Shown piece after piece: positions 12,951-52,095 of a stretch of 52,283 nucleotides of DNA (the stretch's first letter is position 1; every line of letters begins with the position of its first letter). The DNA lies in contig DAIDHX010000216.1 of NCBI GenBank assembly GCA_027451885.1, positions 1 to 52,283 on the forward strand, written 5' to 3'. The DNA is from Planctomycetales bacterium. Its GTDB lineage: Bacteria; Planctomycetota; Planctomycetia; Isosphaerales; Isosphaeraceae. The notes beneath the pieces were generated by a model. The model was not told where the DNA came from, searched no databases, and was given only the letters and a program-made list of their open reading frames with translations. A program made the translations under genes and the position numbers.

Positions 12951-15900
12951 TCACGAGTGCTTCTTGTGCCTGGCGCTGGAAAGGCCCTCGATCGCGGCGT
13001 CGAGGATTCCCATCGCCACGGCCGAGGGAGCGGCCGCGTTCACAGCCGCAAACCGCGCCTGCGGCTTGCCCGTCTTGCCGTTATAGGTCGGCAGGAGCGA
13101 GCCGTGGCCAGGCGTGCCAGGGGGATTCAACGGCGTGGCCGATCCCACCAGCGTGAGCGGGGGGAAGACCCGGTGGTGCACTGAGTCGATCTCGGCCTGG
13201 AAATCGCCCCCATTCACGCCGTTGCCTGACGGGAAGTAATTGTAGAACTCACCGTCGAGCGCGTTGCCAGCGTTGTCCTGCACGCCGGTGACGTTCGAAG
13301 GCGACTTCGACTTCACCGTGAAATAGTAGCGCCCGCCGGGCAAATAATGCCCGTGGTTGAAGGTGAGTGTGACCATCTGGGCGCCCGTGCTCGATGCCGG
13401 CGACACGGTGATCGACGAGACCCGGTACGCTCCACGCAAGTGAACATTTGCTTTGGTAAGCAAATAGTTATTTGCATCTTCCATGCTGGCCAGATCGACG
13501 CCGACGCCGTTGTTCCCCGCCGCGCCGAAGTCCTGGACGGCGAAGGTGAGCTGGCCCTTGACGCGATTGAAGCTGAGATCCGTGATCCGCGGACCCTGGG
13601 TGTCGATGGTGATCGAGGCGATCATCGTGACGGCGCTGCGGGTTTGGCCCGCGGGGTCGACGGCCTGGGCGTAGATGTCGTAGGAGCCGTTCGCGAAGGG
13701 GTTCGGCGAGGTAACAGCCCATGCGCCCGCGAGATTGGCCTGGCCCAGGGCGAAGTAGGCGGGTGTGCCGCCGGCAGTCGAGACAAAGGAGAGCTGGATC
13801 TGGGCGTACGGTTCGCTTGTGAGACCGGTGAAGGTCGGCTGGGCGATATCCGTGACCATCTGGCTGGGGACGACGCTGGAGATGCTGGCGGGGTCGACCT
13901 GGCCTGCGAGTGAGACGGGGTTATCCTTGACGTCGGCGGTATTGGTGAGGGACGCGGTTGCGCCGCTGGTGCTGGTAACGTAGACCGAGATGGGGAACGT
14001 ACCATCCTGGGGTCCGGGCTGGCCGGTGCCAGGTGCGCCATTGGGCAGGGACGAGATGTAGTCGTGCGTACCGGTCACGGTGAAGACGCCGCTGCTCAAG
14101 CTGACCACGCCGACGGAGCTGGGCGAGCCGTCGCCCCAGTCGATCAGAGCGCGGAAGCTCGATGCCGTGGCGTTCGGATTGGCGTCGGTGAAGGTGACGA
14201 CCGGCCCGGAGAACGAGGTATTCTCGGTGGTGGAGACGGTGGGGGCTGGGGTGGTTTCGGTGATGGCCGCGGGGGCGATCGTCGCGGTGCTCGAGCCGAT
14301 CGCAACGGCGCCTGTTGAGGTCTTGGTGATCGTGACCACGACCGGGTATGAGCCGACGTTCGCGTAGGTATGGTTGCCGTAGACGCTGAAGACGGTGCCG
14401 TCAGCGGTGCCGGTGGCGACGATGCGTGTATCGGCCGAGGTGCCGCCATCGCCCCAGGCGATCGAGGCGGTGTAACCCGTGGCGGCCTGGACTGTGCCTG
14501 CGTCAGTGAAGGTGGCCACGAGCACGTCGCCGCCGGTGGCAGGGTTGAGCGCGACTCCTTCGGTGCCGCTGACGGGAACGCCCGCCGCGGCCAGGGGCGC
14601 CGCGGAGACATTCACGGACGAGGGGATCGGGTCGGGCGTGGAATTCGACTGGCCGCTCGTGATGAGGGTAATGATCGTGGTGCCGACCACTGTCGACGTT
14701 GAGCCAACATTGCCAAGCGCTGTAAGCGACACGTCGACTGTATATGGGCCTGGGTTGGCGTACGTGTGGCTCCCCAGGATATCGAATCCCGTGGTGCCGT
14801 TGGCCACGATCACGCCGCCGGTCGAGGCGGTGCTGTCGCCCCAGTTGATCGACGCCACGAAGTCGCTTGCCGGAGCGAGATCGGGCGAAGTGAAGGTGGC
14901 GACGACCTGGTTGTTGAACGCCTGGTTCTCGACGGCGCTCAAGGTGACGGCGGCGCCGACCGGCGACGCTGTTGGCTTGGTAATATTGATATGAGCAAAA
15001 TTACTATAGTTGATCACGGCGTTGCCCGCGCCGAAGTCGAGCACGCCAGGCGTGGAGAAGGTAACGGTCGGCGACGTGGTGGTAATGTTGAGCGTGCTCG
15101 TGTCGCCTGCGCCGCCGTTGAAGTTGTAGGTGTCGGTCGGCACGAGGCTGGATTCATTGGGCACATTGAAGACGTTTGTGCCCGTGCCGCCGGTCACGGC
15201 GAGGGTGGTGATTGATGAGGCATAGGTCAATGTGGCGGGCGTGGCCGAGGTGGTCACGCTGGTACCGCCGATGGTGTAGTTCTGGTTTGTTGCGCTGCCG
15301 TCGGTGATGTTGAGGGTGCCTGCGCCTGTGGAGTCGGAAACGCTCACGTTGCCTTGCACGCTTGAAAGGGCGCCGCTGGGATTCACCGCGCTTGCGCCGA
15401 TGTTTGTTGTGCCGCCGCCCGAGGTCGTGACCGTCGTCGGCACGGATGAGGGTGTGGCGGAGATGTCGGTCGTGGCCGTGTCCGTGCCGGCGCCGTTGAC
15501 GGCGAGCGAGGTCATTCCTGCCGCCGCGGTCGTGTAGTTCACGTTCACGGTATTGCCGGTCCCTGGCGTGAGCACGGTCACCGCCGCCTTGTTGGCGAAG
15601 TCGATGAGCTCGAAATTGCCCGTGCCGCCGGAGTTGATCTCAGCGGATTGGCCACCGAGTGTGAGCGGGCCGTTGACCAGATCGACGGTCTGGTTGCTCG
15701 TCGGAGACGTGAAGGTGAAGGTCGGCGCGGGAACGGTGTCGGTGATCGGTGTCAGGTTGCTGAAGGTGATCGTCTTTGCCGGATTCGTGGACATCGTGTA
15801 CGCGATCGTCCCGGCCCCCGCGCCCGTGGCCGTGTAATTCTCGGTGCTAAAGCCGCCGCCGAGCGCGGTATCCACCAAGACCAGGTCGTTCGAGCCGCTC

Positions 15901-16766
15901 GTGGCCAGGGGCGGATCATAGTTGAGCCCCGAGGCCGGCAATGGATCGCCGTTCGTGTAATTGACGACCAGGTTGGTGCCGTCGGTCGTGCCTCCCACGT
16001 TTACCGCGGCCAGGTCGGCGGTGGGAAACGTGTAGTTATCCGCCCCCGCGCCAAACACCGTGTTGCCCGCGCCATCAGAGCCAACGCTGGCGTTCATGGA
16101 GGCAGGCGAAGGGAACAGGCTGCCATCGTTCAGGTCGACCGTGAGGCCCGCGGCGAGGGGATTCACCAGCCCAACCCCAAGCGTCCCAGCCACATTCGTT
16201 GTGCTGATCGTGCCAAATCCCGACGCCTGGTAGGAGATGACGTTGGTCGGACCTGTGGCGAAGGTGCCAGGGGTGGAGCCCGCGTCGATGTTGAGATTCA
16301 AGCTGGAGCCGAGCGGCGGCCCGCTGACGCTCACAGTATCAGCCGCCGGAACGCCAAGCGCGGACACAGTCATCGTGTTGGTCGTACCCGCGGGGAGATT
16401 CACCGTGGCCGAGTTGCTGATCGACTGCAAGTTGACCGAATTGATGTACGGGCTCGCCGGATCGCCGGCCGCGTCGATCACGAGCGACGTCACACTGCTG
16501 ACCGGGCCAGTTGCATCGTGTCCCTTGTTGCTAACCGCCCAGCCGGCCGCCGTCGCGTTCGCTCCCAGAGTGATGGTCTGGGCGGGATCGTCGAACGTGT
16601 AGGTGGTTCCATCCGACGAGATCGTGAGCGCCGTGGCGCCTGGGGTCGGAGTGGTGGCGTCGTATGTGAGAACGCCCCCTGTCGACGCGCTCAATTCGAG
16701 CGTGGAGAGCAACTGCCGGTCCTCGAGCCGCTCAAAACGAACAGTCGGTCGAATCTTCCTCGACAT
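12951..16766 (-). CDS. Giant secreted PKD-repeat surface protein
   Basis: A 1271-residue low-complexity, Thr/Ser/Gly/Ala-rich extracellular protein. The N-terminus carries RPTVRFERLEDRQLLS, a motif found at the start of very large planctomycete surface proteins and probably an export or sorting signal. The first half is beta-rich (repeating TNTMTVSALG-like strands). Three PKD-like repeats follow, each with a WGD motif (INWGDS, IAWGDGG, IDWGDGS) and most with HTYANPG or HTYANVG. Near the C-terminus are an Ig-like domain (ITIDTQGPRITDLSF) and a conserved tail (GHYLPGGRYYFTVKS, then DNAGNALDGEFYNYFPS), ending in basic RHKKHS. Start ATG 16766 (MSRKIRP) has AAAGGGG about 7 bases upstream; a frame extension to 16814 is less likely. 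Adhesin or wall component is inferred. Confidence 0.85.
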   Translation of the reverse strand: MSRKIRPTVRFERLEDRQLLSTLELSASTGGVLTYDATTPTPGATALTISSDGTTYTFDDPAQTITLGANATAAGWAVSNKGHDATGPVSSVTSLVIDAAGDPASPYINSVNLQSISNSATVNLPAGTTNTMTVSALGVPAADTVSVSGPPLGSSLNLNIDAGSTPGTFATGPTNVISYQASGFGTISTTNVAGTLGVGLVNPLAAGLTVDLNDGSLFPSPASMNASVGSDGAGNTVFGAGADNYTFPTADLAAVNVGGTTDGTNLVVNYTNGDPLPASGLNYDPPLATSGSNDLVLVDTALGGGFSTENYTATGAGAGTIAYTMSTNPAKTITFSNLTPITDTVPAPTFTFTSPTSNQTVDLVNGPLTLGGQSAEINSGGTGNFELIDFANKAAVTVLTPGTGNTVNVNYTTAAAGMTSLAVNGAGTDTATTDISATPSSVPTTVTTSGGGTTNIGASAVNPSGALSSVQGNVSVSDSTGAGTLNITDGSATNQNYTIGGTSVTTSATPATLTYASSITTLAVTGGTGTNVFNVPNESSLVPTDTYNFNGGAGDTSTLNITTTSPTVTFSTPGVLDFGAGNAVINYSNFAHINITKPTASPVGAAVTLSAVENQAFNNQVVATFTSPDLAPASDFVASINWGDSTASTGGVIVANGTTGFDILGSHTYANPGPYTVDVSLTALGNVGSTSTVVGTTIITLITSGQSNSTPDPIPSSVNVSAAPLAAAGVPVSGTEGVALNPATGGDVLVATFTDAGTVQAATGYTASIAWGDGGTSADTRIVATGTADGTVFSVYGNHTYANVGSYPVVVTITKTSTGAVAIGSSTATIAPAAITETTPAPTVSTTENTSFSGPVVTFTDANPNATASSFRALIDWGDGSPSSVGVVSLSSGVFTVTGTHDYISSLPNGAPGTGQPGPQDGTFPISVYVTSTSGATASLTNTADVKDNPVSLAGQVDPASISSVVPSQMVTDIAQPTFTGLTSEPYAQIQLSFVSTAGGTPAYFALGQANLAGAWAVTSPNPFANGSYDIYAQAVDPAGQTRSAVTMIASITIDTQGPRITDLSFNRVKGQLTFAVQDFGAAGNNGVGVDLASMEDANNYLLTKANVHLRGAYRVSSITVSPASSTGAQMVTLTFNHGHYLPGGRYYFTVKSKSPSNVTGVQDNAGNALDGEFYNYFPSGNGVNGGDFQAEIDSVHHRVFPPLTLVGSATPLNPPGTPGHGSLLPTYNGKTGKPQARFAAVNAAAPSAVAMGILDAAIEGLSSARHKKHS

Positions 16767-17232
16767 CCGCCGACCCCTTTCCATACGCCCAACATTGCGC
16801 GTATTCCCGTTCATGGACGAAGCCCCCCCGTAGGCTGATGGCGATCTAGATGAATCTCAAAGAACGAAAGGCAAGCGAAAGGCATCCATGGCATTCCGTT
16901 GCCAACGATCGCGTGGGCTCCATCCTGATTTCTCAAGGCGGCGCATATTGTCCAAACAATATCAACACTAATATCCTGCGCAAACCCCCCAGTCAAAGAT
17001 ATTGGGATTGAAGTGAGACGCGGTTGGAAGGTTCGTAGGGGTTATCGTGGGATGCTGGCTTACACGCTGGCGGTGAAGGCGACTAAGCTTGTAAGGTCAG
17101 TCGATGGGATTGCTGTACGAACCGGCTGGAAGCGAGGTATTGGTGACCAGGCGTGGGGGTGATCGAGGTCCTCGAACGGTGGCGAGCGAGCGTGAACCTG
17201 TTCCGATCCCGGGCCAGGAAGTGCTCAGGCTG
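16767..17232. other. Divergent intergenic region upstream of NAD kinase
   Basis: About 470 bases separate the giant protein gene (minus) from the chosen NAD kinase start (plus). The part from 16815 to 17030 is comparatively AT-rich and shows no gene-like frame on either strand. Positions 17104-17232 are open in the kinase frame and could be an N-terminal extension, but they look non-coding. Confidence 0.45.
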
Positions 17233-18119: not shown

Positions 18120-18857
18120 TTACGCCGTCCAGGCGTTCTCGCCATCGAAGACGGTGGCTGGACTGGAAATCGCGCAGGTGCACTCCGTGCGCTCAAGCAC
18201 CAGGGCGCGCGAATCGATGGTTGCGCCGTTGAGCCTGGGCAGGGCAACGAGATCGAAGCCGAGTGCGTTATCGAAGGCCCAGTCCGCGAGCGTGAGCTTT
18301 TGCCGCCGCCGCCAGCTTAGCCTGCTCCAGATGCTCCTGGCTAGCTCGGTGATGGGCCGATCGGTCCGGATCACCACCGGCCGGCCGCGGCCAAGCGCCT
18401 GTGCGGCGGCCTCGACCTGGGGATCGTTGCGATCATCGGCCACGCGGGCGTGAGCGGCGATCGAACACGCCTTGCCCGTGGGCAGTTCCGCCCCTTGATC
18501 GGCCGCGGTCCAGTTTCCCCGCGTGAGCGCCAGGATGGGAAATGGGTTCGAGCCCGCGAGCGCATAGGCCATTGGGTCGACAAAAAGGCCGTGGAACGCA
18601 AGTGCGCCGGGGCGGTCGTGATCATCCGCTCCCTGGGGAAACACGCCCGCGAAGAGCCATGCGCCCGGCAACCGAAGCGCGAACCGGCCGATGTGTCCGC
18701 GCGCGGCAAGCGGGGGCTCGCCAAACCGCCTGCACGCCGATTCAAACGCCTCGAGCCACTCCGGACGGCAGCCCGCCGAATGCGCAAGCCGGCCGTAACC
18801 CCGGTTCCAAAACCCAAAGCTGCCGTACACGGCCTGCTCGAATCGCGGGGCGATCAT
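18120..18857 (-). CDS. GAP1-like GTPase-associated protein
   Basis: A 245-residue protein opening with FEQAVYGSFGFWNRGYGRLA, then HSAGCRPEWLEAFESACRRFGEPP. It continues through GALAFHGLFVDPMAYALAG and RGRPVVIRTDRPITELA to TLADWAFDNALGFDLVALPR. This layout resembles GTPase-associated protein 1 (GAP1) and related TagF-like proteins that accompany GTPases in bacterial signalling or conflict loci; that assignment is by eye and needs a profile search. No signal peptide or membrane segment is visible, so it should be cytoplasmic. The start ATG 18857 lies 22 bases after the stop of the GTPase gene, implying one transcript and a functional partnership. An upstream extension to 18929 would overlap the GTPase and is rejected. 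Confidence 0.72.
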   Translation of the reverse strand: MIAPRFEQAVYGSFGFWNRGYGRLAHSAGCRPEWLEAFESACRRFGEPPLAARGHIGRFALRLPGAWLFAGVFPQGADDHDRPGALAFHGLFVDPMAYALAGSNPFPILALTRGNWTAADQGAELPTGKACSIAAHARVADDRNDPQVEAAAQALGRGRPVVIRTDRPITELARSIWSRLSWRRRQKLTLADWAFDNALGFDLVALPRLNGATIDSRALVLERTECTCAISSPATVFDGENAWTA

Positions 18858-18879
18858 GGCGTCAGTTTCCCCCGGCGGA

Positions 18880-21219
18880 TCACTCGGGCGCAGGGAGCTC
18901 GGCCTGCGTGTACTCCGAAGCAAAAACAAGGCTCGTCTTGCCCCCCTTGGTCGGCTTGATCGCGTTTGAAAGCAGCCGGATCGCCAGCGGGTCGCCGGCA
19001 GGGCTCGTCAGCCGGTAAACCTCAGTCGCCGTCCAGTCATAATCGATGATCCGGATCGTGACTGGGTCGCCCAGCTTCCAGATGATCGGATCGGGGAATG
19101 TGTAATCCCACACAGGTTTGTGCGAGTCGCGGATCACGGACGACGGCCCATAAACCTGCCCCGCGACCTCGATCACCACCCCCAGGTCGGGTGCGCCTCC
19201 GGCCAGGTACTTGCCGACCGTCGGCTCGACTTCCCCGCGTTTGAGCGTCACCCGGTACGATCGCGGCACCGAGACCTTGTCCCACCAGTCGAGATACGCC
19301 TTGGCTGCCTCCGCGCGGCGGCCGTCGGGATGGTCGCGGAGATACTCGCGCACGCGTTTGGCCGTGGTCGCCGGATCTTCGGGATGGGCCTGGGAATGAG
19401 CATACGCAGCCTTGTAAGAATCATGATCCCATTCTTCGAGGATGCGATTCCTGGCTTCCATGGCCTCGCTCGTGTGCCGGCCGCCATTGGCGTGGGCCTT
19501 GAGATAGAGGTCATACTGCTCGATGCGGCCCCGGTATTTCTGGGGTGATTGCCGTGAGAGAGCGATGGCGTTTTCGTAGTCGGCGTCGTCCTTGCGGCTG
19601 AGATAGGAGCCCAGGCGGGCGGAGACGATTTCGCGCGCGGGGCTGTCTGCATGGTCGTCGAGGAATTTGCGGGCGCGAACGATCAGGTCGTCGAGCGTCG
19701 CGCCTGGAGCGGATTCGGCGCGAATGAGCTCTTCGGCCTCGTGCTGATCGCGTGCGCGTGCGCGGGCCTGTTGCTCGGCTTTCAAGGTCTGGGCGAGCTC
19801 GAGCGCCTGGGCGCGGCGGCTGGAGTCGGGGAACTCGCGGAGGAACTGGTCGATGGCGGAGAGTCCGACGGCCGGGTCGTCGAGAGCGGCGAGTGATCTT
19901 GCCGCGCCCTGGGTTTCGCGCCAGCGTGTGTCGTGGCGGCTTTCATTGCGGGCGGCCTCGACCTGGCGAATCTCGCCGATGAGGGCAGGGGATTCATCCT
20001 TGAGCCGTTCGAGGGTCTGGGGCAGGTCGGCCGGCTCTGCGCCATTTTTAACCTGGGCCTGGGCCAGCCGCACGCGCCAAAGCGCTTGCTTCTCGCGGGC
20101 GGCGGCTTCGAGCTTCGGCCAGAAAACACCCAGCGTGGGATGCCACTCGATGAATGAACCCCAGCGCCTTTCCGCGAGCGCGGGCGCGGGGTCCTGGTTT
20201 TCGAAGGCCCTGGCCTGTTCGAAGGCAATGCGGTCGTAGCCCGCGAGTGCGCACGCCGCCAGTCCCGCCGCGGCGATTGTTGCCGCCGCGAAACGTCGTC
20301 GCCGGCCGCGCGTCAGTCCGCCGAGCCGCGCTTTGAATTCGTGCGAGCGATTTGAGCGCGGATAGCGGTGCTCGTATGCCTCGAGCGCACGTTCAATCGC
20401 ACCCAGGTCGCCGCCGGCGATTTCAAAGAGACGCTCAAGATCGCGGCGGTCGCGCGCTTCGAGCTCTTCCGCCAACCACGCCAGGGGTGCTTCGAGCCCG
20501 ATCGGCCGTAGCGACTCAGGCGGGCGCCCGCCCGCGCTTCCCTCGCCAAAGGCGCTCACGGCGAAGATCGCCCCCTCGGGTGCGTGCGCAGCGAGCGCAT
20601 GGCGGGTCATTCCATAGCGCGATTCGACAACCTGTTCCACCCACTCCGCACGCGGCAGTGCTCCCTGCACATAGCCAACTGCCAGGTCGAGCTTGGTGAG
20701 CACAAGGGCGATCGGGCGGTCGATCAGCAAGCTCTTTGACTGCTCGAGGTAGCGCTCGAGCAAACCCTCGAGCTCCTGCTGCCGCCGCCTGCGTTCAGCC
20801 GGATCAACCGCGCCGGCGGCTTCAAGGCACAACAGCACCGCGTCGCAATCGGCCAGAAACTCAAGAATAGGCGCGTCGGATCCCAGCGTGACATGCTCGC
20901 CCTGGTAATCCTTGACGATCAAGTCGAGCCGGGCCGGTCCGTGATAAAGCCTCAGCGCGAGCTCGGTCTCGGCAAGCGTGCCGGCCGTCGCCTGGCCGGA
21001 TTCGAGCGCGGCGATCTTGTCCGCCAGATATTCCGCCGTCCGCGGGTTGCTCGCCGCCAGCCGCAGGCCGGGCAATCGTCCCCCGGCCGCCTGGCGATAG
21101 AACATCGCCAGGAGCGTGGTCTTGCCCACATTGCGATGCCCGAACAATCCCACGCGTTTGGCCCGCGTGAGCCGATCCACAAGCGCTCTTGCTTCCTGGT
21201 CGCGGACGCTCTTGGCCAT
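18880..21219 (-). CDS. Membrane-anchored P-loop GTPase with helical repeats and C2-like domain
   Basis: A 779-residue three-part protein. The N-terminal GTPase (1-250) has a P-loop GHRNVGKT (27-34), a switch/G3-like DYQG (104-107), a G4-like TKLD (175-178) and a possible G5 SAF (222-224). After RGRRRR a single membrane helix (about 310-327) follows, so by the positive-inside rule the GTPase is cytoplasmic. Residues 330-650 are charged and helical, TPR-like. The C-terminal 125 residues from about 653 resemble a C2 beta-sandwich (YGPSSVIRDSHKPVWDYTF and PVTIRIIDYDW). Start ATG 21219 has GGAGG 7 bases upstream. It is transcribed with the downstream GAP1-like gene. The role is unknown; a membrane-localised molecular switch in a conflict-type system is inferred. 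Confidence 0.82.
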   Translation of the reverse strand: MAKSVRDQEARALVDRLTRAKRVGLFGHRNVGKTTLLAMFYRQAAGGRLPGLRLAASNPRTAEYLADKIAALESGQATAGTLAETELALRLYHGPARLDLIVKDYQGEHVTLGSDAPILEFLADCDAVLLCLEAAGAVDPAERRRRQQELEGLLERYLEQSKSLLIDRPIALVLTKLDLAVGYVQGALPRAEWVEQVVESRYGMTRHALAAHAPEGAIFAVSAFGEGSAGGRPPESLRPIGLEAPLAWLAEELEARDRRDLERLFEIAGGDLGAIERALEAYEHRYPRSNRSHEFKARLGGLTRGRRRRFAAATIAAAGLAACALAGYDRIAFEQARAFENQDPAPALAERRWGSFIEWHPTLGVFWPKLEAAAREKQALWRVRLAQAQVKNGAEPADLPQTLERLKDESPALIGEIRQVEAARNESRHDTRWRETQGAARSLAALDDPAVGLSAIDQFLREFPDSSRRAQALELAQTLKAEQQARARARDQHEAEELIRAESAPGATLDDLIVRARKFLDDHADSPAREIVSARLGSYLSRKDDADYENAIALSRQSPQKYRGRIEQYDLYLKAHANGGRHTSEAMEARNRILEEWDHDSYKAAYAHSQAHPEDPATTAKRVREYLRDHPDGRRAEAAKAYLDWWDKVSVPRSYRVTLKRGEVEPTVGKYLAGGAPDLGVVIEVAGQVYGPSSVIRDSHKPVWDYTFPDPIIWKLGDPVTIRIIDYDWTATEVYRLTSPAGDPLAIRLLSNAIKPTKGGKTSLVFASEYTQAELPAPE

Positions 21220-21313
21220 CGATCCCGCCTCCCTGGTATCCGGCCCATCCTTATGCATCGGTCAAATTCTGGTGCGCTCACGAGCCTCCTTGCTTACGCT
21301 CCTGGGCCTGAAT

Positions 21314-22297
21314 TCAACCGCGCTTGAGAATACGCAAAGGCCGCATCATCCAGAGAAACGGCCGGATCGCGAACCGTACGGGCATGCCGAGCAACATAAG
21401 GAGCGCCACCGCGGCGGTCATCACGGCCAGGGCCATTGCCGCAGCGCGGACGAGCGGTGAATCGATCCCCCGCGCGGCGAGCCAGCGGCCGATGCCTTGA
21501 TCCAGCCCGGCGAAGCTCGCCGCGCTGACGGCCGCCGCAAGCTGAACGCCGGCTCGGGCAAATTCGCTCGCGGCGTACTGGGTGGCACGGCCGGCGTAAT
21601 CGACAAATCGCTCGGGATCGGCCAGGAACGCGGCGAACACGCCCGCCGCCACGAGCTTCTTCTTGTGCGGCAAGACCGTGGTGGTGAAGAACTCCCAGCC
21701 TGGGCGGCCTGTCTTGCGAAGGACGCCGATCGCCTCGGGTCCCTCCTTCGCCAGCACGGGGGCCACGTCCTCGCCGAACGCCCGCACGGCCATGAGCCCC
21801 TCGGGACCAAGCCGTTCGATCATCGCCGCGGCCTCGCCCGGATTCTTGCGGGCCAGGTTGGCGACCGTTTCTCCCATTTCCACGAGCACGCGCTTCTCGG
21901 CCGGCTTCAAGGACGCGAAAACCTCGCGAGCCGTGGAGTCTGTGATCAATTGCCGGAAGCGCGACTCAAGCGCGGCCTGGGCGGGCGCTTCGATCGCCTC
22001 TGCCTCATGTGAGAATGTCCCCGCGCGTCGGGCAATTTGTTCGAGGCCGAGATCAAGCTCGCGGCCGGCGAGCCGGCTCGTGGATTTGAGCTCAACTCGC
22101 GCTGCCTCGCTCGAGCCGTGCGCTGCCGAGCGCGCCCCAGCCGCGGCCTCGTGCGCGATCTGGCGTAGCAGATCGTCGAGCCAGTTTACGCCCCCCGCGC
22201 GGGCGCTCGATCCCGCAAAACCTGCGCACACCGCAAAGGCCAGGATGACCCGCGGGATCGCTCGGGAGCCGCCACTCACCGCTGCGCTTGCCGGCAT
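21314..22297 (-). CDS. Exported helical-repeat membrane protein
   Basis: A 327-residue protein of no named family. ATG 22297 (MPASAAVSGG) is chosen because AGGAG sits 8 bases upstream and a signal peptide follows (VILAFAVCAGFAGSSARA). The middle is Ala-rich and helical, with repeats resembling AAMIERLGPEGLMAVRAFG and then AFLADPERFVDYAGRATQYAA. The C-terminus has a hydrophobic helix (ALAVMTAAVALLMLLGMPV) and a basic tail, predicting an anchored protein with its repeats outside the cytoplasm. Its repeat motif resembles one in the 28513-30483 product, so the two may be paralogous parts of one system. It lies between the CHAT gene (252 bases) and the GTPase gene (94 bases), same strand. Confidence 0.72.
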   Translation of the reverse strand: MPASAAVSGGSRAIPRVILAFAVCAGFAGSSARAGGVNWLDDLLRQIAHEAAAGARSAAHGSSEAARVELKSTSRLAGRELDLGLEQIARRAGTFSHEAEAIEAPAQAALESRFRQLITDSTAREVFASLKPAEKRVLVEMGETVANLARKNPGEAAAMIERLGPEGLMAVRAFGEDVAPVLAKEGPEAIGVLRKTGRPGWEFFTTTVLPHKKKLVAAGVFAAFLADPERFVDYAGRATQYAASEFARAGVQLAAAVSAASFAGLDQGIGRWLAARGIDSPLVRAAAMALAVMTAAVALLMLLGMPVRFAIRPFLWMMRPLRILKRG

Positions 22298-22549
22298 CGC
22301 CATCGCTCCTTCTCGCATGCGAATCGCCTCGTGTCCCTCTGCGCCGGCCCGTTCTCTCGCCTCTTCATTATGGACCACGATAAGCCGCCGTGTCGCCGCC
22401 CTCGGTTCCAGAATCAACCCCTCGCCACGGCTTAAGCCGTTCGTCCAGCACGGACAAGCCGCGCGCCCTGACCGGAACCTTTTACGCCACAATCCCCGCC
22501 GGATCACTCCGCGCGGCAGCCATGCCGGTATTCGTCCTGGAATTCAGGT

Positions 22550-25500
22550 TCAGTCCGGATCCCCCGTCAGGATGAACCCCGCCCAGTAATAGGGGTGTTC
22601 GAACGGATGATCCGAAACGGGCTTGCGCGTGTCGGTCACCACGCCTCCTCTGGTTTCGATTCCGAGCTGTTTTTCGACATCTTGCTGGGTGAGGCCGCGG
22701 AGCCAGGCCTTGGCCTCGGCCAGAGCCTGCGCCCTGGGCATGGGATGCGCAAGCCCCGGCCGTTTGCCGAGCCAGTTCTGGTAGAAGCGAGTCATGAGTA
22801 GCCCCGTGGCACGATCGTTCACGGACCACAGGCCCAGGAGGAGCGAGCGCCCGCCCGCCACAAAGAGCGCCTGCGCGAAGCCGACATAGCCTTCGCCTGA
22901 GTCCGCGCGGCCAAGGCCGCTTTGGCAGGCGCTCAGAGTGACGAGCTGGGCGTGCAGTTTCCAGGAGCTCATGATCTCGCCGGCGGTGATCATGTCGTCG
23001 TGGAGCGGCTCGGGCGTATCGCTCCCGCCCTGGATCTTCGTGGGCGAGGGTGCCAGGATGAGCCGTGAATTGAGCGGCGTCTGATCGTCAATCAGGCAGT
23101 GAGTCGCGAGGTGGATGACCTCGTAATTCGCGAGCTTGCCGGCGGCGCGGAGCGACTCGATGGTCGGCTCGCTGGCGTCTGGGCCAAGATAGACGTCCCT
23201 GTGCGTGAAGAGGGGGGCGATCTGCTCGACCTCGGTCCGCGCGCCTGGCAGCGGGCCGAGCGCCTCGCCGCGCACGCGATCGAGCAGATTCGCGAGCGTG
23301 ACATGCGCGGCCGCCGGGGACGAAGTCTTCCGCGCCAGTGTCCCTGGTTGAGCCTGTGCGCTTGTGGGGTCGCCGAACGCGAGCAGCCGTGGATTGGCCG
23401 CATTGGCGATCGCGTCGTGGGAGCGTTCTTCCTGGAGCCAGGCGAACATGGTAGCCGAGGGGGCATAGCTGATCTCAGGCTGGGTCTGGCCGGGGTGGAG
23501 CGCTTCAAGGAGGGCCTCGATGGGAATCCCCGCGAGCGCGGGCGAGGGCAAGACGACCCAGCGCCTGACGGCGGGCGACGCGCCTGCCTTTGCGAGCGCG
23601 GCCTCCACCGGCTCGAACCGGGCCGCCGCCAGCGCCTTGAGCTCCGCGCGCCAGCCAGTCTGTCCCGGCTCGGTCGCAATGAGCGCACGCGCCTTCGCCG
23701 GCCGATCCTCGTCGTCCTTCGTCCACGCTCCTGCCGCGCCCGAGCCGATGATTCGGATCCACTCAGGCGCACCCTGTTTGCGCACCACGCACGCCCAGTG
23801 GTTTTCGCGCGGATCCGCCTGATTGTTGGTTTTCATATGAAGATCAATCCATCCCACGAGCGCTGTGTCCGCCGCCAGCGCGTGCTGTATCCGCTCGAGC
23901 GAGAAAACCTCGCCGCCGGCGACCTTGTATTTCCTGGCCAGCTCGGTCTCGAATTCGATCATCCGTCCCTGGAGATCGAGGCGTTCCACCCGCAACGAAT
24001 CCAGCACCTGGGACTGGTTTGGCGGCAAGGCGCGCGCGGCTGCCAGCATGGCGATCCGGTTATCGACGCGATTGATCGACTCGGCGAGCGTCTCCTGCCG
24101 CGCTTGCTCCTCGGGCGAGAGCCGTTGCCGGCGGGCGGTGAGATCATCGAGCAGGCCGCGCGCGAGCCCTGATTCCCACGCCTTCCAGGCATCGCGCGTT
24201 CGGCCGCTGCGCGCGAGCAAGGCGGTGAAGACCGGGATCGGGCTGTTCGCGGTGGAGAAGCTCGAGCGGTCGATGCCCGTGACCCCTGCCTTTTGCCGCA
24301 CGAGCTCGAACCCCTCCGCGGCCTTGCGCGCGGCGATTTCAGCCTCGGCGTCATTGCCCTCGGCCATGAGCACAAGCGCGAGCGCCCGGTTGCTGTTCAC
24401 GGTTCCCATGTGAGCGTTGCCGAACGCGGCTTCCAGGCTTGTGATTGTCTGGCGGACCAGAGGCGCGGCCTCGGCATGCTTTCCCTGGCTGTCGAGGCAA
24501 TGCGCCAGCGACTGCGTGACTTCAGCCGTCACGGGATGACGCGCGCCGAGCGTCCCGCGCAGCACGGCCAGCGTCTCCTGAAACGCCGTTTCGGCCTCGG
24601 CGTACTTGTGCTCTGCCGTGAGACAATCGGCCAGGCCCCTGGTCGCGCGTGCGGTTTCAGGATGCCGCGGGCCGCGAACTGACTGGAAAAGCGCCACCGC
24701 CTGGCGGAAGAGATCTTCTGATTCGCTCAGGCGTCCCTGGCGCAGCAGGTTGTACGCCAGGTTGTGCATGCTGAGCCCTGTCCGCCAATCTCGGTCGCCA
24801 AGAATTCTGCGGCAAAGCGCGAGTGTTTGCCGCTGGAATGCCTCGGCTTCCGCGAGCTTGCCTTGCTGCTCGAGGCAGTGTGCCAGGTTGTTGCAGCCGG
24901 CGGCGATTGTGGGCTGATCATCGCCCAGAAGCTGGACTTTCAGCGCGAGCGAGCGGAGCAGGATTGGCTCGGCCTCGGCGTAGCGCGCCTGGTTGTTGAG
25001 CGTGGCCGCGATCGAGTTGTAGGCGCCGATGGTCTCCGGATGGCGGTCGCCAAACGAAGTGCGCCAGGCAGCGGCTTCCTTGCGAAAAGCCTCTTCCGCC
25101 CGAGCATGCCGGCCGAGCCGGGTGTAATCCTCGCCCAGCTCACCCAGGGCTGACGCAGTCGCGGGATTGCTTTGGCCGAGCAGCCGCGCGCGGACCCCGT
25201 ATGCGGATTTCGCCTCTTGTTCCGCCCTGGTGTAATCACCCCTCCCGCGCGCGGCCCTGGCATCGCCGAACGCTCGCGATGCCTGTACGAGCTCAGCCTG
25301 ATCGGCCGCGGACATCTGGGACTCGCGCTTCAAGGTCGCCTCGCGCGCAGCCGCGAGAGCGACTTGCCAGTGATCGCCCGGCTGGCGGCGGCGGCGAATC
25401 GCAACCGCATCGTGCGCTGCACGCTCCCCGTCGGCGAAGCGGCCGGCCGCTTCAAGCTCGTCGATCTGCTTTTCGAGCGCAAGAATCTTGCGGGCGTCGC

Positions 25501-25669
25501 CGTCGCTCGGCGTTTCAGGCCAGGCGGGCGCCAGCGCCGGACGGCCTTCGACCGCACCACTGGGCACAGCCGGCCTGGACTGGCCCCACACCGCATGCGC
25601 CAGGGCGATCACGAACACCGGCGCGCAGAAAGACACTCTATAAAAGAGCACTCGGTTGCCCATGTACAT
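22550..25669 (-). CDS. Exported TPR-CHAT domain protease
   Basis: A 1039-residue protein. A signal or anchor (VLFYRVSFCAPVFVIALAHA) follows the start. About ten TPR-like repeats (around 130-450) come next, with the kinesin-light-chain-like pattern of FGDRHPETIGAYNSIA and YAEAEPILLRSLALKVQLLG. The C-terminal third is a caspase-like CHAT domain with the expected dyad: His857 in VIHLATH and Cys915 in TLSACQSGLG; GLWSVNDRAT and HPYYWAGFILTGD close the domain. CHAT proteins are cysteine proteases that cleave targets after activation. Start ATG 25669 has GAGGA 6 bases upstream and lies 2 bases after the kinase stop. Translational coupling to that kinase strongly suggests one signalling unit. The substrate is unknown. 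Confidence 0.9.
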   Translation of the reverse strand: MYMGNRVLFYRVSFCAPVFVIALAHAVWGQSRPAVPSGAVEGRPALAPAWPETPSDGDARKILALEKQIDELEAAGRFADGERAAHDAVAIRRRRQPGDHWQVALAAAREATLKRESQMSAADQAELVQASRAFGDARAARGRGDYTRAEQEAKSAYGVRARLLGQSNPATASALGELGEDYTRLGRHARAEEAFRKEAAAWRTSFGDRHPETIGAYNSIAATLNNQARYAEAEPILLRSLALKVQLLGDDQPTIAAGCNNLAHCLEQQGKLAEAEAFQRQTLALCRRILGDRDWRTGLSMHNLAYNLLRQGRLSESEDLFRQAVALFQSVRGPRHPETARATRGLADCLTAEHKYAEAETAFQETLAVLRGTLGARHPVTAEVTQSLAHCLDSQGKHAEAAPLVRQTITSLEAAFGNAHMGTVNSNRALALVLMAEGNDAEAEIAARKAAEGFELVRQKAGVTGIDRSSFSTANSPIPVFTALLARSGRTRDAWKAWESGLARGLLDDLTARRQRLSPEEQARQETLAESINRVDNRIAMLAAARALPPNQSQVLDSLRVERLDLQGRMIEFETELARKYKVAGGEVFSLERIQHALAADTALVGWIDLHMKTNNQADPRENHWACVVRKQGAPEWIRIIGSGAAGAWTKDDEDRPAKARALIATEPGQTGWRAELKALAAARFEPVEAALAKAGASPAVRRWVVLPSPALAGIPIEALLEALHPGQTQPEISYAPSATMFAWLQEERSHDAIANAANPRLLAFGDPTSAQAQPGTLARKTSSPAAAHVTLANLLDRVRGEALGPLPGARTEVEQIAPLFTHRDVYLGPDASEPTIESLRAAGKLANYEVIHLATHCLIDDQTPLNSRLILAPSPTKIQGGSDTPEPLHDDMITAGEIMSSWKLHAQLVTLSACQSGLGRADSGEGYVGFAQALFVAGGRSLLLGLWSVNDRATGLLMTRFYQNWLGKRPGLAHPMPRAQALAEAKAWLRGLTQQDVEKQLGIETRGGVVTDTRKPVSDHPFEHPYYWAGFILTGDPD

Positions 25670-25671
25670 GA

Positions 25672-27471
25672 TCAATCCTCTTGTTGGTGCGCACGTTCGA
25701 TCACCGGAAACGCAATCGCCCACCCGACCTGCACGCCCTTGAGCCCGCGAATCTGGTGGCAGACCTGCTCAAACGCCTCAGGCGCGGCGGAATGTGAAAC
25801 CACGACGCCGCGCGTGGGATCCGCGAGGCGGCGGATTTCACCGACCTTGTCGATCCACGCGCCTTGATAACGCCAGACACCCTCGGCCCGCGCGTGCCGC
25901 CAGGGCCAGGGCTTACCCGCCGGGGATGATTCAAAAGGCTCGAGCGCGACTTCGGAAACAAGCAAGACAATCGCCTGGAAGCCTGGGCCGTCGCTCAGGC
26001 TGAAGTACTGGGTTGGGCCGGGCGGATAATCGATCCGCGCGGTTGCGACTGGTGCTTGCGAGGCGTTTTCCGGCATCAGGAGTTGCGTGCCGCCGTCGGT
26101 ATTGAGCGCGAGCAAATACGCATAAGCAGGGCGTTCAAGCCGGATCGAGACGCGGATCAGGTCTCCTTCGTGGGCCTCGAACCGCGCCGTGCCAATCGCC
26201 CCCAATGCCTTGAGGTTCGCACCTGGCTCGAAGAGATCCACTTCGAAGCGCGTGACGCCTGGCGCTGGAGCAGGGGGCGCGGGGCGCGGCCAGAACGCCG
26301 CGGCCGCGCTCAGGCCCACCATCCCCGCGGCGAGCAAGGCCGACAAACCCACGAGCCGCCTTGGCCGCTTCAGATACCTGCGTAGACTTTGCGCGAATTC
26401 CTCGGCCGATGGCATGCGCAAGAGAGGATCCGCGGCAAGCGCCTGGCTGCAAATCTCGGCCAAAGCGCGGGGGATGGGCGCGGTCGAAGCGCGCAGGGGA
26501 ATGGGCGCGCCCAGCCGCGCCTGCCGCAGAATCGACGCGCGCGAAAGCCCGCGGTAGGGCGGACAGCCCGAAAGCAAGTAATACAGCACTGCGCCCAGGC
26601 CGAAAACGTCGGTCCGAGGACCGATCAGATCCACCCGCCCCTGGGCCTGCTCCGGGCTCATGAACGCGGGAGTGCCGGCGACCCAGTCGCTGGGATCGCT
26701 CAACCAGGCGTGCCTGACCCGGGCCAGCCCCAGATCAATGAGCCGGGCGCGGCCTGTCGGATCGATGAGCACGTTGCTCGGTTTGATGTCTTGATGCACA
26801 ATGCCTCGCGCGTGCAAGTAAGCAACTGCGTTCGCAATTTCGGCGACGATCTCGGCGCAGCGCGCGGGGCTGGGATCGTGCTGCTGGAAATACTGGTGCA
26901 GGACCAGGCCAGGCACATACTCCATCACGAGAAAGACATGCCCGTCGTCGTGGTCGAGATCGAACACGCGCACGAGCCCCGGGTGCTCGCATTCTGCGAG
27001 CAGCCTGGCTTCGCGTACGAGCCGCTCACGCCCATCGGGATCGATCGTGATCGGCAAGCGTGATCGTTTGAGCACAAGCTCATGCCTAAGCCGGGGATGA
27101 ACGACGCGGAAGACGTCCGCCTGGCCGCCGCCGCCGAGCGCTTCGATGACTTCGTACTGGCCGATGTGCCTGCGCTCCGGGGCAGTGGTCGAGACGATTG
27201 GGGGCGGATGCAGGGCGGTTTCGGTGGCCGAGGATTCGTCGGCCGAATCCGCGCCCGAGGCCGAGTCGCCCGTACGATAGCGTTTCCAGAGTCTCAGCGC
27301 CTCCAGATCCGCGGCCAGTTCGAGATTGCCGATACCCTGCGCGCCCAGCCACTGCCCCGGGTCGATCGCGGCTCCGCGTTTCAGCTCCTCCCAGTAGCGA
27401 TCGAGCAGGCGCGAGCGCTCGAGCTCCAGAGACGCGTCGTACTCGTCCACCAGGCGGCCGTCGTCGATCAT
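25672..27471 (-). CDS. Membrane Ser/Thr protein kinase with DUF4384-like tail
   Basis: A 599-residue protein. The kinase domain (about 104-370) has the glycine loop GGGGQADVF (113-121), Lys135, Glu154, catalytic loop HQDIKPSN (226-233), DLG (246-248) and SPE (272-274). It should be active, but HQD replaces the usual HRD, so activation-loop phosphorylation may not control it. A short N-terminal helical region (to about 65) and a linker precede the kinase. A single membrane helix (about 373-394) places the remaining 200 residues outside; they include a DUF4384-like beta domain (GDLIRVSIRLERPAYAYLLA). It overlaps the sigma factor gene by 4 bases (ATGA) and is 2 bases from the CHAT gene. Phosphorylation of the sigma factor or GTPase is possible but unproven. 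Confidence 0.92.
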   Translation of the reverse strand: MIDDGRLVDEYDASLELERSRLLDRYWEELKRGAAIDPGQWLGAQGIGNLELAADLEALRLWKRYRTGDSASGADSADESSATETALHPPPIVSTTAPERRHIGQYEVIEALGGGGQADVFRVVHPRLRHELVLKRSRLPITIDPDGRERLVREARLLAECEHPGLVRVFDLDHDDGHVFLVMEYVPGLVLHQYFQQHDPSPARCAEIVAEIANAVAYLHARGIVHQDIKPSNVLIDPTGRARLIDLGLARVRHAWLSDPSDWVAGTPAFMSPEQAQGRVDLIGPRTDVFGLGAVLYYLLSGCPPYRGLSRASILRQARLGAPIPLRASTAPIPRALAEICSQALAADPLLRMPSAEEFAQSLRRYLKRPRRLVGLSALLAAGMVGLSAAAAFWPRPAPPAPAPGVTRFEVDLFEPGANLKALGAIGTARFEAHEGDLIRVSIRLERPAYAYLLALNTDGGTQLLMPENASQAPVATARIDYPPGPTQYFSLSDGPGFQAIVLLVSEVALEPFESSPAGKPWPWRHARAEGVWRYQGAWIDKVGEIRRLADPTRGVVVSHSAAPEAFEQVCHQIRGLKGVQVGWAIAFPVIERAHQQED

Positions 27472-28247
27472 GGCGCGTCATCCCGCGTTGGATCGAGGAA
27501 TTCTCGGTACTCGGCCAGCCAGTCTTGCACGGCTTCCGGGCGGATCTGGAGCCGCGTGGCGATCGCGCTTGCGTCCAGCTTCTGAAACCGGCAGAGGCCG
27601 ATGGCGTCCTGGACGAGCGGTTCGATTCTGTGCCTGTCCATGCACTCGATCAGCCGGAGCGCCTGGCCAAGCTGGTGTACAGCGCGGCTGTAGCGCTTTC
27701 GCACCGCCGGGGGCTGAACGCCCAGGCGAGCGGCGATCTCCTCGTGACTGAGATTCTCGGTATTGCGCAGCCGGATCAATTCCCGCTCCTCGTCTCGGCA
27801 CCAGCTTTCCGCCCGGCTTAGCCGCTCCTCGATTTCTCGCGCTGCCGCCTGCTCCGGAACCGGCGTGGCCGGGTCGAGCGGATCCCACGCCGCCTCATGT
27901 CCCGATCCTCTTTGCAGGCCGTGCGGATCAACCGCCGCCAGACCCCGGAAGCGATTGAGCTGCAACGCGCGCTTCTTCATGATCCCGAGCAGCCAGGCCA
28001 GAAAGGCACGCGGACCGCGCCCCTGGAACTCATGCACCTTCTTGCTTGCCACCAGCAGCACGTCTTGCACCAGGTCGGAAGGATCGACCGCCGTATTACG
28101 CTGGCGATTCACCCTCCCCCAGGCGCGCGCACGGAGCGCAGGTCGGCACCACGCCAGGACACGTTCCAGGGCCGAGCGACTCCCCATCTGGGCTCGGTCC
28201 ACGAGCTCGGTCGGGGGTGCTCGATCGCTTCGGCCCTCGTTATTCAT
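27468..28247 (-). CDS. ECF-type sigma factor
   Basis: A 259-residue sigma-70-family protein. Region 2 is seen around DPSDLVQDVLLVASKKV and RAFLAWLLGIMKKRALQL. Region 4 (RDEERELIRLRNTENLSHEE, then IAARLGVQPPAVRKRYSRA) carries the HTH. A 50-residue C-terminal extension (CRFQKLDASAIATRLQIRP, then AVQDWLAEYREFL) follows and may be a second HTH. No anti-sigma gene is adjacent; instead its stop overlaps the kinase start by 4 bases, suggesting a kinase-linked sigma factor of the planctomycete type. It is preceded by 265 bases without a gene and so may start a transcript of its own. Regulation of its own operon is inferred. Confidence 0.88.
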   Translation of the reverse strand: MNNEGRSDRAPPTELVDRAQMGSRSALERVLAWCRPALRARAWGRVNRQRNTAVDPSDLVQDVLLVASKKVHEFQGRGPRAFLAWLLGIMKKRALQLNRFRGLAAVDPHGLQRGSGHEAAWDPLDPATPVPEQAAAREIEERLSRAESWCRDEERELIRLRNTENLSHEEIAARLGVQPPAVRKRYSRAVHQLGQALRLIECMDRHRIEPLVQDAIGLCRFQKLDASAIATRLQIRPEAVQDWLAEYREFLDPTRDDAP

Positions 28248-28512
28248 TGCCGCGAGACCTCAAAGTGTGACCAGGACGAGGCCCCCATCGGCAAGCCGAA
28301 ATCCCATCGATCATCTTCCGCCGCCTCGATGGGCCAGGGCTAATCGCGCGCAATGCCCTCACGCCGAGCTGTAAGGCAAAGCGGCGAAGGACCTTATTCA
28401 TTATTCAGGTGCGCTCGATCGCCGCAATCAAAAAAGTCTCGCAAGACATCGTGCGGCAGGGAGGGCCGCCACGTTGATGGGTCAGGGAGCGAGCGCGTGT
28501 GGGGCGGTGCAT

Positions 28513-30483
28513 TCAGCGCGCAGGCTCAAGGGTGCGACCACTGGCGGCGGGGGCCGTGCGCTTGCTCTTCAGATGCTCTTCCATTTTCTGGAACGCGATC
28601 GCTCCCGCGCCCGCGGAGGCCATTTGCACGCCCAGGTACTTGAGCCCCTTTTGGGGCGGGATCGCCACAATCACGCGTACGCCCGAACGCAAGAACTCGA
28701 CCGGTTTCCATGCCGAAAGTACGAGCCCCATGCGAGCCGCAACGGCCTTGGCCGATCGCGAGGCGGCCGCGAGATCGAGGCGCTCCATCGCCTCGCTTGT
28801 ACGGGCCAGGATTCGTGAGACGCCGCCGGCTGAGCGAACTCCCCAGTATCGCGCCAGCCGTTCGCTCGAGACCTTCGCGACCTGCGACCCCGCGCGGCCG
28901 GCTGCGCCCGCGCTGAGCAATTCCATCTCGGACCTGGCCGCGAAGCGTACGGCCGCCCTGGCTTCTTGACCTGCCGCGCTCGCGGCAAGTGCGCCTTCAG
29001 GACCAGCGATCAGCCCCAGCACGTCCGCCGCCACGAACGCCAGGTCAACCGCCGCCCACGCCGCTTCCTCACGCGAGGGAACGTAGCCTCGCAAGGCCAC
29101 GCTGCCCAGATGTGCAGCGTCGTAGAGCGGCAGGAATTTTTCAAAGCCTGGCGCCCGGTCATCTTGCTCGAGCACACGCGCCAGGCCGTCGTGCTCGATT
29201 GCCCGGATCATCGCCTGGCCGTTCGAACCCGCCGTAAACAGAAAGCCCAGGGCGAGCGTCTCGGCGAGTGTGCGATCGGGCTTTGCCGCCAGGTGGGCGA
29301 CTGCCTCAGGCGCAAGATCCACCTGCGCGATCGGGGGGATCGCCGCGGCTCCATGCCGCCGGATCACGGTGCAAAATTCAGGGTCGTGAGCATATTTTTC
29401 AATGAGCAGGAGCGCAGCCTTGCCATGCTCAGCGAGTGCGGCGGTCGCCTGCCGGGCAAGCACGGGGTCGGCCGGCAGCGCGGCGAGCGCGAGCGCGGCA
29501 TCCGGGCCTGCGTGCTCGAGCGCGCGTTCGCCCAGCGTGCCTTGATCAATGGCAAGCGCAAGCGCGCCAGGGCAACCGCCGGCCGCTTCGAAGAGACCTC
29601 GATCGAGCACGCGCCTGACATGTTCGGCCAGGCTCTCGGCCCGGTGTGATCCCAGCCAGCGCACGCATTGGTCCTGGTTCACAAGCAAGAGAATCAGCAC
29701 CTGTTCGAGCGGCTGATCTTCGAGTGCGGCGGCCACGTCTCCGAGCGATTCGAGCACGAGGAACCCAGGCAATCCTTGCGTTTGAAAAGCCCGCGCAGCA
29801 AGCCGGGGGTATTTGGTGGCGATCGCAAGCGCGCGTCTCAGACTCGCCGGACCGTCCTCGAGCCCAAAAAGCGCGAGCGCCCCGAGGATGCTTTGGAGCT
29901 CGGCTTCAGGTAAGCGATTGGTTCGCGCCTGGTCGAGGAATTCAGCCATTGCTTCTGGTTCGGCAAGCAAGAGGGGCAGGAGCGCGGGCCGTTCCGCCGC
30001 CAGCTTGAGCCGGGCTGGGTCAAGCGCTGCGATCTCGTCAATGAGCAGCGCCCGATCGCCATTCGCCTCGCGCTTCAGCCCGAAATATTCGCGCCAGTGG
30101 ACGAGGAGCTCGGCCGCGGCATCGTCCCCGACCAGATGACGGAGCTTGCGAAAATCCTGCGGGCGCTGTTCCCGCAAGTAGAGGGCCTCCAGGTCGAGCC
30201 GGTCGAGCAACTTGAGCCCGAGCAGCCCATCCTCCTGTTCGATTTGCCAGGCCTGGCGGCCAAAGCGGCTGGCAACCCGCTCGACCAGCTTGCGTGTGGA
30301 TTCGCCCTCGGCTCGATAGCGCCTGGCCAGTAAACCCGCGGCCGACTCCGGCTCCCCAGCGCGGGGCGCAGGCGCAGCCCAACTCGGCCGGGAAAATCCA
30401 TCCAGCCGTGGACTCTTCCCCGCCAGCTTGATGGCAAGCATCGCCGCCGTCACAAACACCAGCAGCAAGATTCCTCGCTTCAT
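28513..30483 (-). CDS. Exported helical-repeat protein upstream of the sigma-kinase-CHAT genes
   Basis: A 656-residue protein beginning with a signal or anchor (GILLLVFVTAAMLAIKLAG). Start ATG 30483 has GAGGA about 4 bases upstream; a 61-codon extension to 30666 would bury the signal and is rejected. The body is Ala/Leu-rich and helical. One stretch (ALLLIEKYAHDPEFCTVIRR, then HGAAAIPPI) resembles the repeat of the 21314-22297 protein, so a HEAT/ARM-like scaffold is inferred. The C-terminal part (VAIPPQKGLKYLGVQMASAG, then AGAIAFQKMEEH) has a weak hydrophobic segment. The gene faces the same way as the sigma factor, 265 bases before it. No function can be assigned. Confidence 0.72.
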   Translation of the reverse strand: MKRGILLLVFVTAAMLAIKLAGKSPRLDGFSRPSWAAPAPRAGEPESAAGLLARRYRAEGESTRKLVERVASRFGRQAWQIEQEDGLLGLKLLDRLDLEALYLREQRPQDFRKLRHLVGDDAAAELLVHWREYFGLKREANGDRALLIDEIAALDPARLKLAAERPALLPLLLAEPEAMAEFLDQARTNRLPEAELQSILGALALFGLEDGPASLRRALAIATKYPRLAARAFQTQGLPGFLVLESLGDVAAALEDQPLEQVLILLLVNQDQCVRWLGSHRAESLAEHVRRVLDRGLFEAAGGCPGALALAIDQGTLGERALEHAGPDAALALAALPADPVLARQATAALAEHGKAALLLIEKYAHDPEFCTVIRRHGAAAIPPIAQVDLAPEAVAHLAAKPDRTLAETLALGFLFTAGSNGQAMIRAIEHDGLARVLEQDDRAPGFEKFLPLYDAAHLGSVALRGYVPSREEAAWAAVDLAFVAADVLGLIAGPEGALAASAAGQEARAAVRFAARSEMELLSAGAAGRAGSQVAKVSSERLARYWGVRSAGGVSRILARTSEAMERLDLAAASRSAKAVAARMGLVLSAWKPVEFLRSGVRVIVAIPPQKGLKYLGVQMASAGAGAIAFQKMEEHLKSKRTAPAASGRTLEPAR

Positions 30484-40047: not shown

Positions 40048-40193
40048 ACGTGGTTTCAGAGAACAGAGTTCGCGGCGCAGTGGCCAATCGCAGGTTTTTT
40101 CTGAGAAAGTTGAATCCCGAATGCCTACGATAGGCAGAACCATTGTGAGTGGGTGAGGTTGAGTGCAACGTGCAGGCCGCTTGCGAGAGCGAC

Positions 40194-50443: not shown

Positions 50444-50458
50444 CGGCTCGTCGCCGAG

Positions 50459-51886: not shown

Positions 51887-52095
51887 TGCGCACCTGGCTG
51901 AATCTTGAAATGCTGCATCACGCGAAGGGTAGAACAACCTCGCTTGCAATCATATCACCTTGAAACGACGCGAAGGCAAGGGAAAAGCGGAGCGAAGCGC
52001 ACCTTTCCACGCGGCTCGGCGCGGGTGTTTGGCTCCGCGTATACTGGCGTTGGATCAGGTAGAGTCGCGTGGCCTGTCTTTCCGAGGGCGAGATC

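Follow-up and report, generated by a model that had tools for sequence, protein, structure and literature searches.

A probable housekeeping GTPase module of the Isosphaeraceae and the sigma factor-kinase-CHAT cassette inserted into it

The seven genes described here probably constitute two interleaved units, a housekeeping trans-envelope GTPase module and a sigma-kinase-CHAT cassette inserted into it. They lie in a stretch of 52,283 nucleotides (the window) from a 6.18-Mb draft genome of a member of the Isosphaeraceae. When the open reading frames of the window were re-read, the genes, their strand and their order were exactly those of the original prediction (Table 1), as were the spacings that it quoted: the sigma factor and kinase genes overlap by 4 bases (ATGA), the kinase and CHAT genes are separated by 2 bases and the GTPase and GAP1 genes by 22 bases. 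Its domain calls held in Pfam searches (Sigma70 regions 2 and 4, Pkinase plus DUF4384, TPR plus CHAT, and DO-GTPase2), and its topologies agreed with TM and positive-inside prediction. The proposal that all seven genes act as one unit stood only in part. HEL1, HEL2, GTPase and GAP1 belong together, but the sigma factor, kinase and CHAT genes between them are a separate cassette; in a comparison of neighbourhoods across 45 genomes of the family, the four outer genes were conserved together and the three middle genes were not.

Table 1. Positions of the seven genes, of domains within the GTPase and of the cassette borders in the window.
Feature	Positions	Strand	Description
HEL1	28516-30483	-	656 aa; signal-anchored, helical-repeat; core module gene 1
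HEL1/sigma junction	28248-28512	-	265 bp; cassette border
ECF-type sigma factor	27471-28247	-	259 aa; inserted cassette gene 1
Ser/Thr kinase, TM and DUF4384 tail	25675-27471	-	599 aa; inserted cassette gene 2
TPR-CHAT protease, predicted exported	22553-25669	-	1039 aa; inserted cassette gene 3
CHAT/HEL2 junction	22304-22549	-	about 246 bp; cassette border
HEL2	21317-22303	-	about 329 aa; core module gene 2
GTPase	18883-21258	-	792 aa; DO-GTPase2, TM, stalk, C2 fold; core module gene 3
Arf-like G domain of GTPase	20449-21168	-	motifs GHRNVGKTT, DYQGE, TKLD
Single predicted TM helix of GTPase	20236-20292	-	Arg cluster before helix (positive-inside)
C2 fold, GTPase C-terminus	18883-19266	-	predicted outside cytoplasm
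GAP1-like protein	18123-18857	-	245 aa; divergent GAP1-N2, TagF/longin-like predicted fold; core module gene 4

Elsewhere in the window, a second sigma factor, a WD40 protein and a second Ser/Thr kinase (40149-41084 and 47600-51949) are unlinked to the seven-gene block. An NAD kinase gene converges on GAP1, and beyond it lies the gene for a large predicted surface protein (12951-16814), which carries a bacterial Ig-like domain and, near its N-terminus, the motif 'RLEDRQLLS'.

Each protein was searched against the 45 Isosphaeraceae genomes, 26 of which are high-quality. One full-length copy of the GTPase gene was present in 45/45 genomes, of HEL1 and HEL2 in 43/45 each and of GAP1 in 42/45; among the high-quality genomes the count was 26/26 for each of the four. 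Adjacency was scored for pairs on the same contig and strand lying within 1.5 kb. By this measure 26/36 same-contig pairs of HEL1 and HEL2 were adjacent, compared to 34/36 for HEL2-GTPase and 27/35 for GTPase-GAP1, and HEL1, HEL2, GTPase and GAP1 follow one another without interruption in 14 genomes, among them that of the divergent member G012. Some of the family depart from this order (Paludisphaera-type genomes, G001 and G037). Protein distances of the four core genes correlated with one another (r 0.86-0.91) and with those of pyruvate kinase (r 0.80-0.92; Mantel p 0.001 for both), whose gene often lies next to HEL1 in divergent orientation. The HEL1-HEL2-GTPase-GAP1 module is inherited vertically in the Isosphaeraceae and kept as a single copy. 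Three loci titled Candidatus Kuenenia stuttgartiensis (L194, L196, L200) carry isosphaeral core-module genes; they correspond to genomes placed in the Isosphaeraceae, and the titles look wrong.

HEL1 had no Pfam or PDB match in sequence searches, and HEL2 had no convincing match in either. A signal peptide, a helical domain and a C-terminal TM segment with a basic tail are predicted for HEL2. The two proteins are not paralogues (BLASTP E 1.6; profile-profile probability 9%). An apparent fusion of HEL1 to a TIR-nSTAND1 protein in G030 (L271:6378-11729) is probably a HEL1 remnant that lies in the open frame ahead of where the TIR gene seems to start; it matches the genome's own HEL1 at 52% over about 120 residues.

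The GTPase is the best defined of the core proteins. PF19993 (DO-GTPase2) matched 32/32 orthologues, including the window protein over the cut-off (3.5e-12), and the motifs GHRxVGKTT, DYQGE and a TKxD-type motif are conserved across the alignment. The window protein has Glu at the position of the catalytic Gln of Ras, as in the description of the DO-GTPases (PMC7159879). Its G domain begins at about residue 30, and Pfam found no N-terminal zinc ribbon in it or its orthologues. In the structure model (pLDDT 85.8) the G domain matched Arl3/Arl2/Arf with a Z of about 15.9; by sequence, no convincing solved relative of the GTPase was found in the PDB. A single hydrophobic segment near residues 323-341 is only moderately hydrophobic, falling below the chosen cut-off in about a third of orthologues. 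Most of the orthologues that pass the cut-off have a strong positive cluster before it, so the G domain should be cytoplasmic. The segment is followed by a helical stalk with weak likeness to YfiO/TPR and then by a C-terminal C2 fold (Foldseek target-normalised TM up to 0.70, probability 1.00), matched weakly by PF00168 in 11/32 members. The C2 fold in the predicted structure confirms the GTPase-TM-C2 assignment originally made.

The identification of the downstream gene product as GAP1-like was also right. PF20013 (GAP1-N2) matched 19/25 members of the GAP1 alignment, though not the window protein, which had no Pfam match of its own; its probable membership of GAP1-N2 is drawn from its orthologues, whose scores are weak (best 7.7e-6). 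PF20014 (GAP1-M) matched 5/25 members, again weakly (best 0.0014), and GAP1-C did not appear among the matches listed. Across the 45 genomes, the Pfam GAP1-N2 profile had matches in 29, the strong ones at loci other than the core module; the core GAP1 proteins scored weakly or not at all, and nothing in the window's genome matched. Typical GAP1-N2 systems (L253-L262 and others) are patchy in the family, and their GAP1 open frames range from about 220 to 1190 codons.

The GAP1 model (pLDDT 87, pTM 0.84) found its best fold match in TagF (Foldseek 9.3e-4; VIA Z 9.5 over 203 residues), with a TM-score of 0.40 over the GAP1 model. The next matches, with Z of 3.7-7.3, were DENND1A and B, DENND10, archaeal roadblock-longin, GATOR1, C9orf72, FLCN-FNIP2, Ykt6 and MglB; any single one with Z below 8 is weak alone, and the signal is that the list is mostly longin/DENN/roadblock. 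We do not place the protein in the TagF family, as the match is one of fold and searches of Pfam and the PDB with the GAP1 sequence gave no TagF-family match and no convincing solved relative. R82 (in the window protein within DDHDRP) does not vary across the alignment and may serve as an arginine finger.

The distance between HEL1 and HEL2 separates the two units. It is 65 and 81 bp in the same-genus relatives G021 and G022 compared to 6209 bp in the window, where the sigma factor, kinase and CHAT genes account for the difference by lying inside it; all three are absent from this place in both relatives. In most genomes that have HEL1 and HEL2 together the gap is below 600 bp and the slot is empty. 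The window's genome has one CHAT match in all, and the proteins most similar to this CHAT protein (47-48%) are encoded at other loci. Among the CHAT relatives with upstream sequence, a kinase gene lay just upstream in 10/12 and a sigma factor gene in 4 (manual count). Because kinase-CHAT pairs, some with a sigma factor, recur at unrelated loci, sigma-kinase-CHAT is a separate cassette. Cassettes of this type are scattered across the family, and in this lineage one has been inserted into the gap from HEL1 to HEL2.

The cassette proteins carry clear domains. The sigma factor matched PF04542 and PF08281/PF04545 over cut-off, as well as TIGR02937 (regions 2 and 4), and the CHAT domain matched PF12770 at 8.7e-57, its candidate catalytic residues reading as intact (His857 in HLATH and Cys915 in SACQSG). 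No direct or inverted repeat of at least 10 bases is common to both borders, no target-site duplication or mobility gene marks an insertion, and the G+C of the cassette equals that of its flanks, which together suggest an old insertion or one acquired from a close relative. Promoter and terminator scans were at chance level. Adjacency means that co-expression of cassette and core could still be conceived, yet we found nothing beyond position that couples them. Within the cassette, the membrane kinase may receive an envelope signal and act on the co-encoded sigma factor, with the predicted exported CHAT protease as an effector or sensor of the pair.

Other genomes have other genes in the slot. 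That of G001 (L159:8335-12254) holds a low-GC3 island with GmrSD_N, MAE_28990-like HEPN, DUF4145 and DUF2321 genes, a defence-type insertion, and the slots of G037 and G038 (Singulisphaera) hold genes that read as metabolic. The unlikeness of these inserts indicates that the slot tolerates insertions of mixed content. They might instead be the variable part of a conflict system, in which a constant four-gene GAP1-N2 switch takes up effectors between HEL1 and HEL2, sigma-kinase-CHAT in the window and GmrSD/HEPN in G001. Kinship through DO-GTPase2 and GAP1-N2 would fit such a system, as would the defence-type genes of G001 and the fact that the effectors given for the sister GAP1-N1 systems include caspase-superfamily peptidases (PMC7159879). 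We nevertheless regard it as unlikely: the slot is mostly empty, the genes that Singulisphaera has in it read as metabolic, and the module lacks FNIII, zinc ribbon and any known effector domain. The near-universal, single-copy, vertical core is also unlike the family's patchy typical GAP1-N2 loci, so that, of the conflict-system link originally drawn, kinship alone holds.

The original prediction went further and proposed a trans-envelope relay ending in proteolysis. In such a relay the cytoplasmic kinase and GTPase would control the outer CHAT protease, with the sigma factor as feedback. Shared strand and order, tight gaps within both sub-blocks and compatible topologies speak for it. Neighbourhoods reject the seven-gene block, however, since HEL1 and HEL2 adjoin in the same-genus genomes, the middle genes have their relatives elsewhere, many genomes keep the four outer genes together without them, and the two large gaps (Table 1), which the original prediction left unmentioned, coincide exactly with the cassette borders. 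A relay ending in CHAT proteolysis is unsupported; it is largely refuted by the neighbourhood analysis, in which its middle genes were missing from the locus in both same-genus relatives, and we consider it highly improbable.

The core genes also recur outside the locus and the family. Full-length HEL1 and HEL2 are confined to the Isosphaeraceae, but there are also remote copies, several again in modules; since genome searches outside the family scored 2-6 candidates per genome, absences there are soft. Full-length GTPase was found in eight genomes of family f6 (one partial), which seems to include Gemmataceae, and GAP1 adjoins it in several. In at least three f6 genomes (L243, L246, L247) the core GTPase lies near genes reading as argB, argD, argF and rph. 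G458 (L238) has a HEL1-HEL2-GTPase module (E 2.7e-23, 1.5e-38 and 3.7e-42) and G578 (L268) a HEL1-GTPase-GAP1 module (3.1e-20, 1e-17 and 1.7e-5). Second copies read HEL1-GTPase-(GAP1) in G012 (L270) and (HEL1)-HEL2-GTPase in G025 (L251), where brackets mark members detected only after one profile iteration. Pfam confirmed DO-GTPase2 in the G578 copy and the second G012 copy, and no sigma factor, kinase or CHAT gene was seen among the genes identified at the remote module loci. Recurrence of HEL1-(HEL2)-GTPase-(GAP1) at independent loci is the strongest evidence for a functional linkage. That the core is a chance neighbourhood of four unrelated genes kept by slow rearrangement, as the conserved and not obviously linked pyruvate kinase gene might suggest, is scarcely credible, for the same order recurs in paralogous modules, both at other loci and in other families, and GTPase-GAP1 pairing is known from other phyla (PMC7159879).

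In two families a protein with the motif 'HRWFAxGEGWAYH' follows a divergent GTPase (L238:6161-7747 and L240:10496-11236). The L238 protein had no convincing Pfam match; it is possible that this protein is an alternative partner to GAP1.

The core module is best read as a trans-envelope GTPase switch that has a housekeeping role and is akin to the GAP1-N2 'conflict' systems. GAP1 would bind the G domain and control its GTP cycle, and the TM helix may transmit GTP-dependent pairing of G domains to the stalk and C2 domain in the periplasm. Together with HEL1 and HEL2, these would in turn influence how the membrane or wall is organised, a role that would be housekeeping at the envelope and not that of a variable defence system. 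More tentatively, the Isosphaeraceae may depend on an obligate Arf/longin-like membrane control, in which the inner-membrane GTPase and a longin/DENN-type GAP1 drive a C2 domain in the periplasm, along with two helical scaffolds specific to the family, and so shape the unusual envelope of planctomycetes; we think this doubtful in so full a form. A general role in FtsZ-free division is unsupported because the genome searches did not find the module in most of the class.

DO-GTPase/GAP1 pairs have so far been described mainly within variable conflict systems. The new element is a pair that is near-universal and single-copy in a whole family and joined through the membrane to a C2 domain. With its TagF/longin-like predicted fold, GAP1 can be tested for a role as a true regulator of the GTPase, and cultured strains suited to such tests exist among the Isosphaeraceae, for example Singulisphaera acidiphila. 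A literature search of partial coverage, with few subscription papers, returned no account of this module among Isosphaeraceae core-gene studies.

Like the GAP1-N2 DO-GTPase systems (PMC7159879), the module has a DO-GTPase2 with Glu after DxxG, a GAP1 gene that closely follows it and a TM anchor; the beta-sandwich outside the cytoplasm, past the TM helix, is a feature shared with some of those systems. Unlike them, it lacks an FNIII-repeat protein (none of the four core proteins gave an FNIII match in Pfam), zinc ribbons, which are usual but not universal at the N-terminus of these GTPases (PMC7159879), and an effector, shows no clear GAP1-C among the matches listed, and has one GTPase only and two orphan helical proteins. 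Variable effector genes are not part of the core, the slot being mostly empty across the family genomes. Those systems are patchy, whereas the module is near-universal and single-copy in one family. Neither longin nor TagF comes up in the main text of the 2020 paper in which GAP1 was named (PMC7159879).

The cassette resembles ECF sigma factors under Ser/Thr kinases in its overlapping sigma factor and membrane kinase genes and differs in its third gene, for an exported TPR-CHAT protease; kinase control is a recognised way of regulating ECF factors (PMC8103513). TagF, a T6SS accessory repressor, is the top fold match of GAP1 and differs in having no sequence-level match to it. We know of no DO-GTPase partner for TagF. 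TagF is reported to act on Fha in the T6SS (PMC5995506). MglA/MglB and the eukaryotic Arf/Rag/Rab GTPases with their longin-roadblock/DENN regulators share with the module an Arf-like G domain and a longin/roadblock-type predicted regulator fold; in contrast, the GTPase here carries its own TM helix, stalk and C2 domain, and GAP1 has no detectable sequence similarity to the roadblock/DENN regulators. Longin and roadblock domains have been proposed to share an origin (PMC3521125), and a DO-GTPase protein encoded next to phage-shock genes has a predicted role in membrane stress (PMC11237479).
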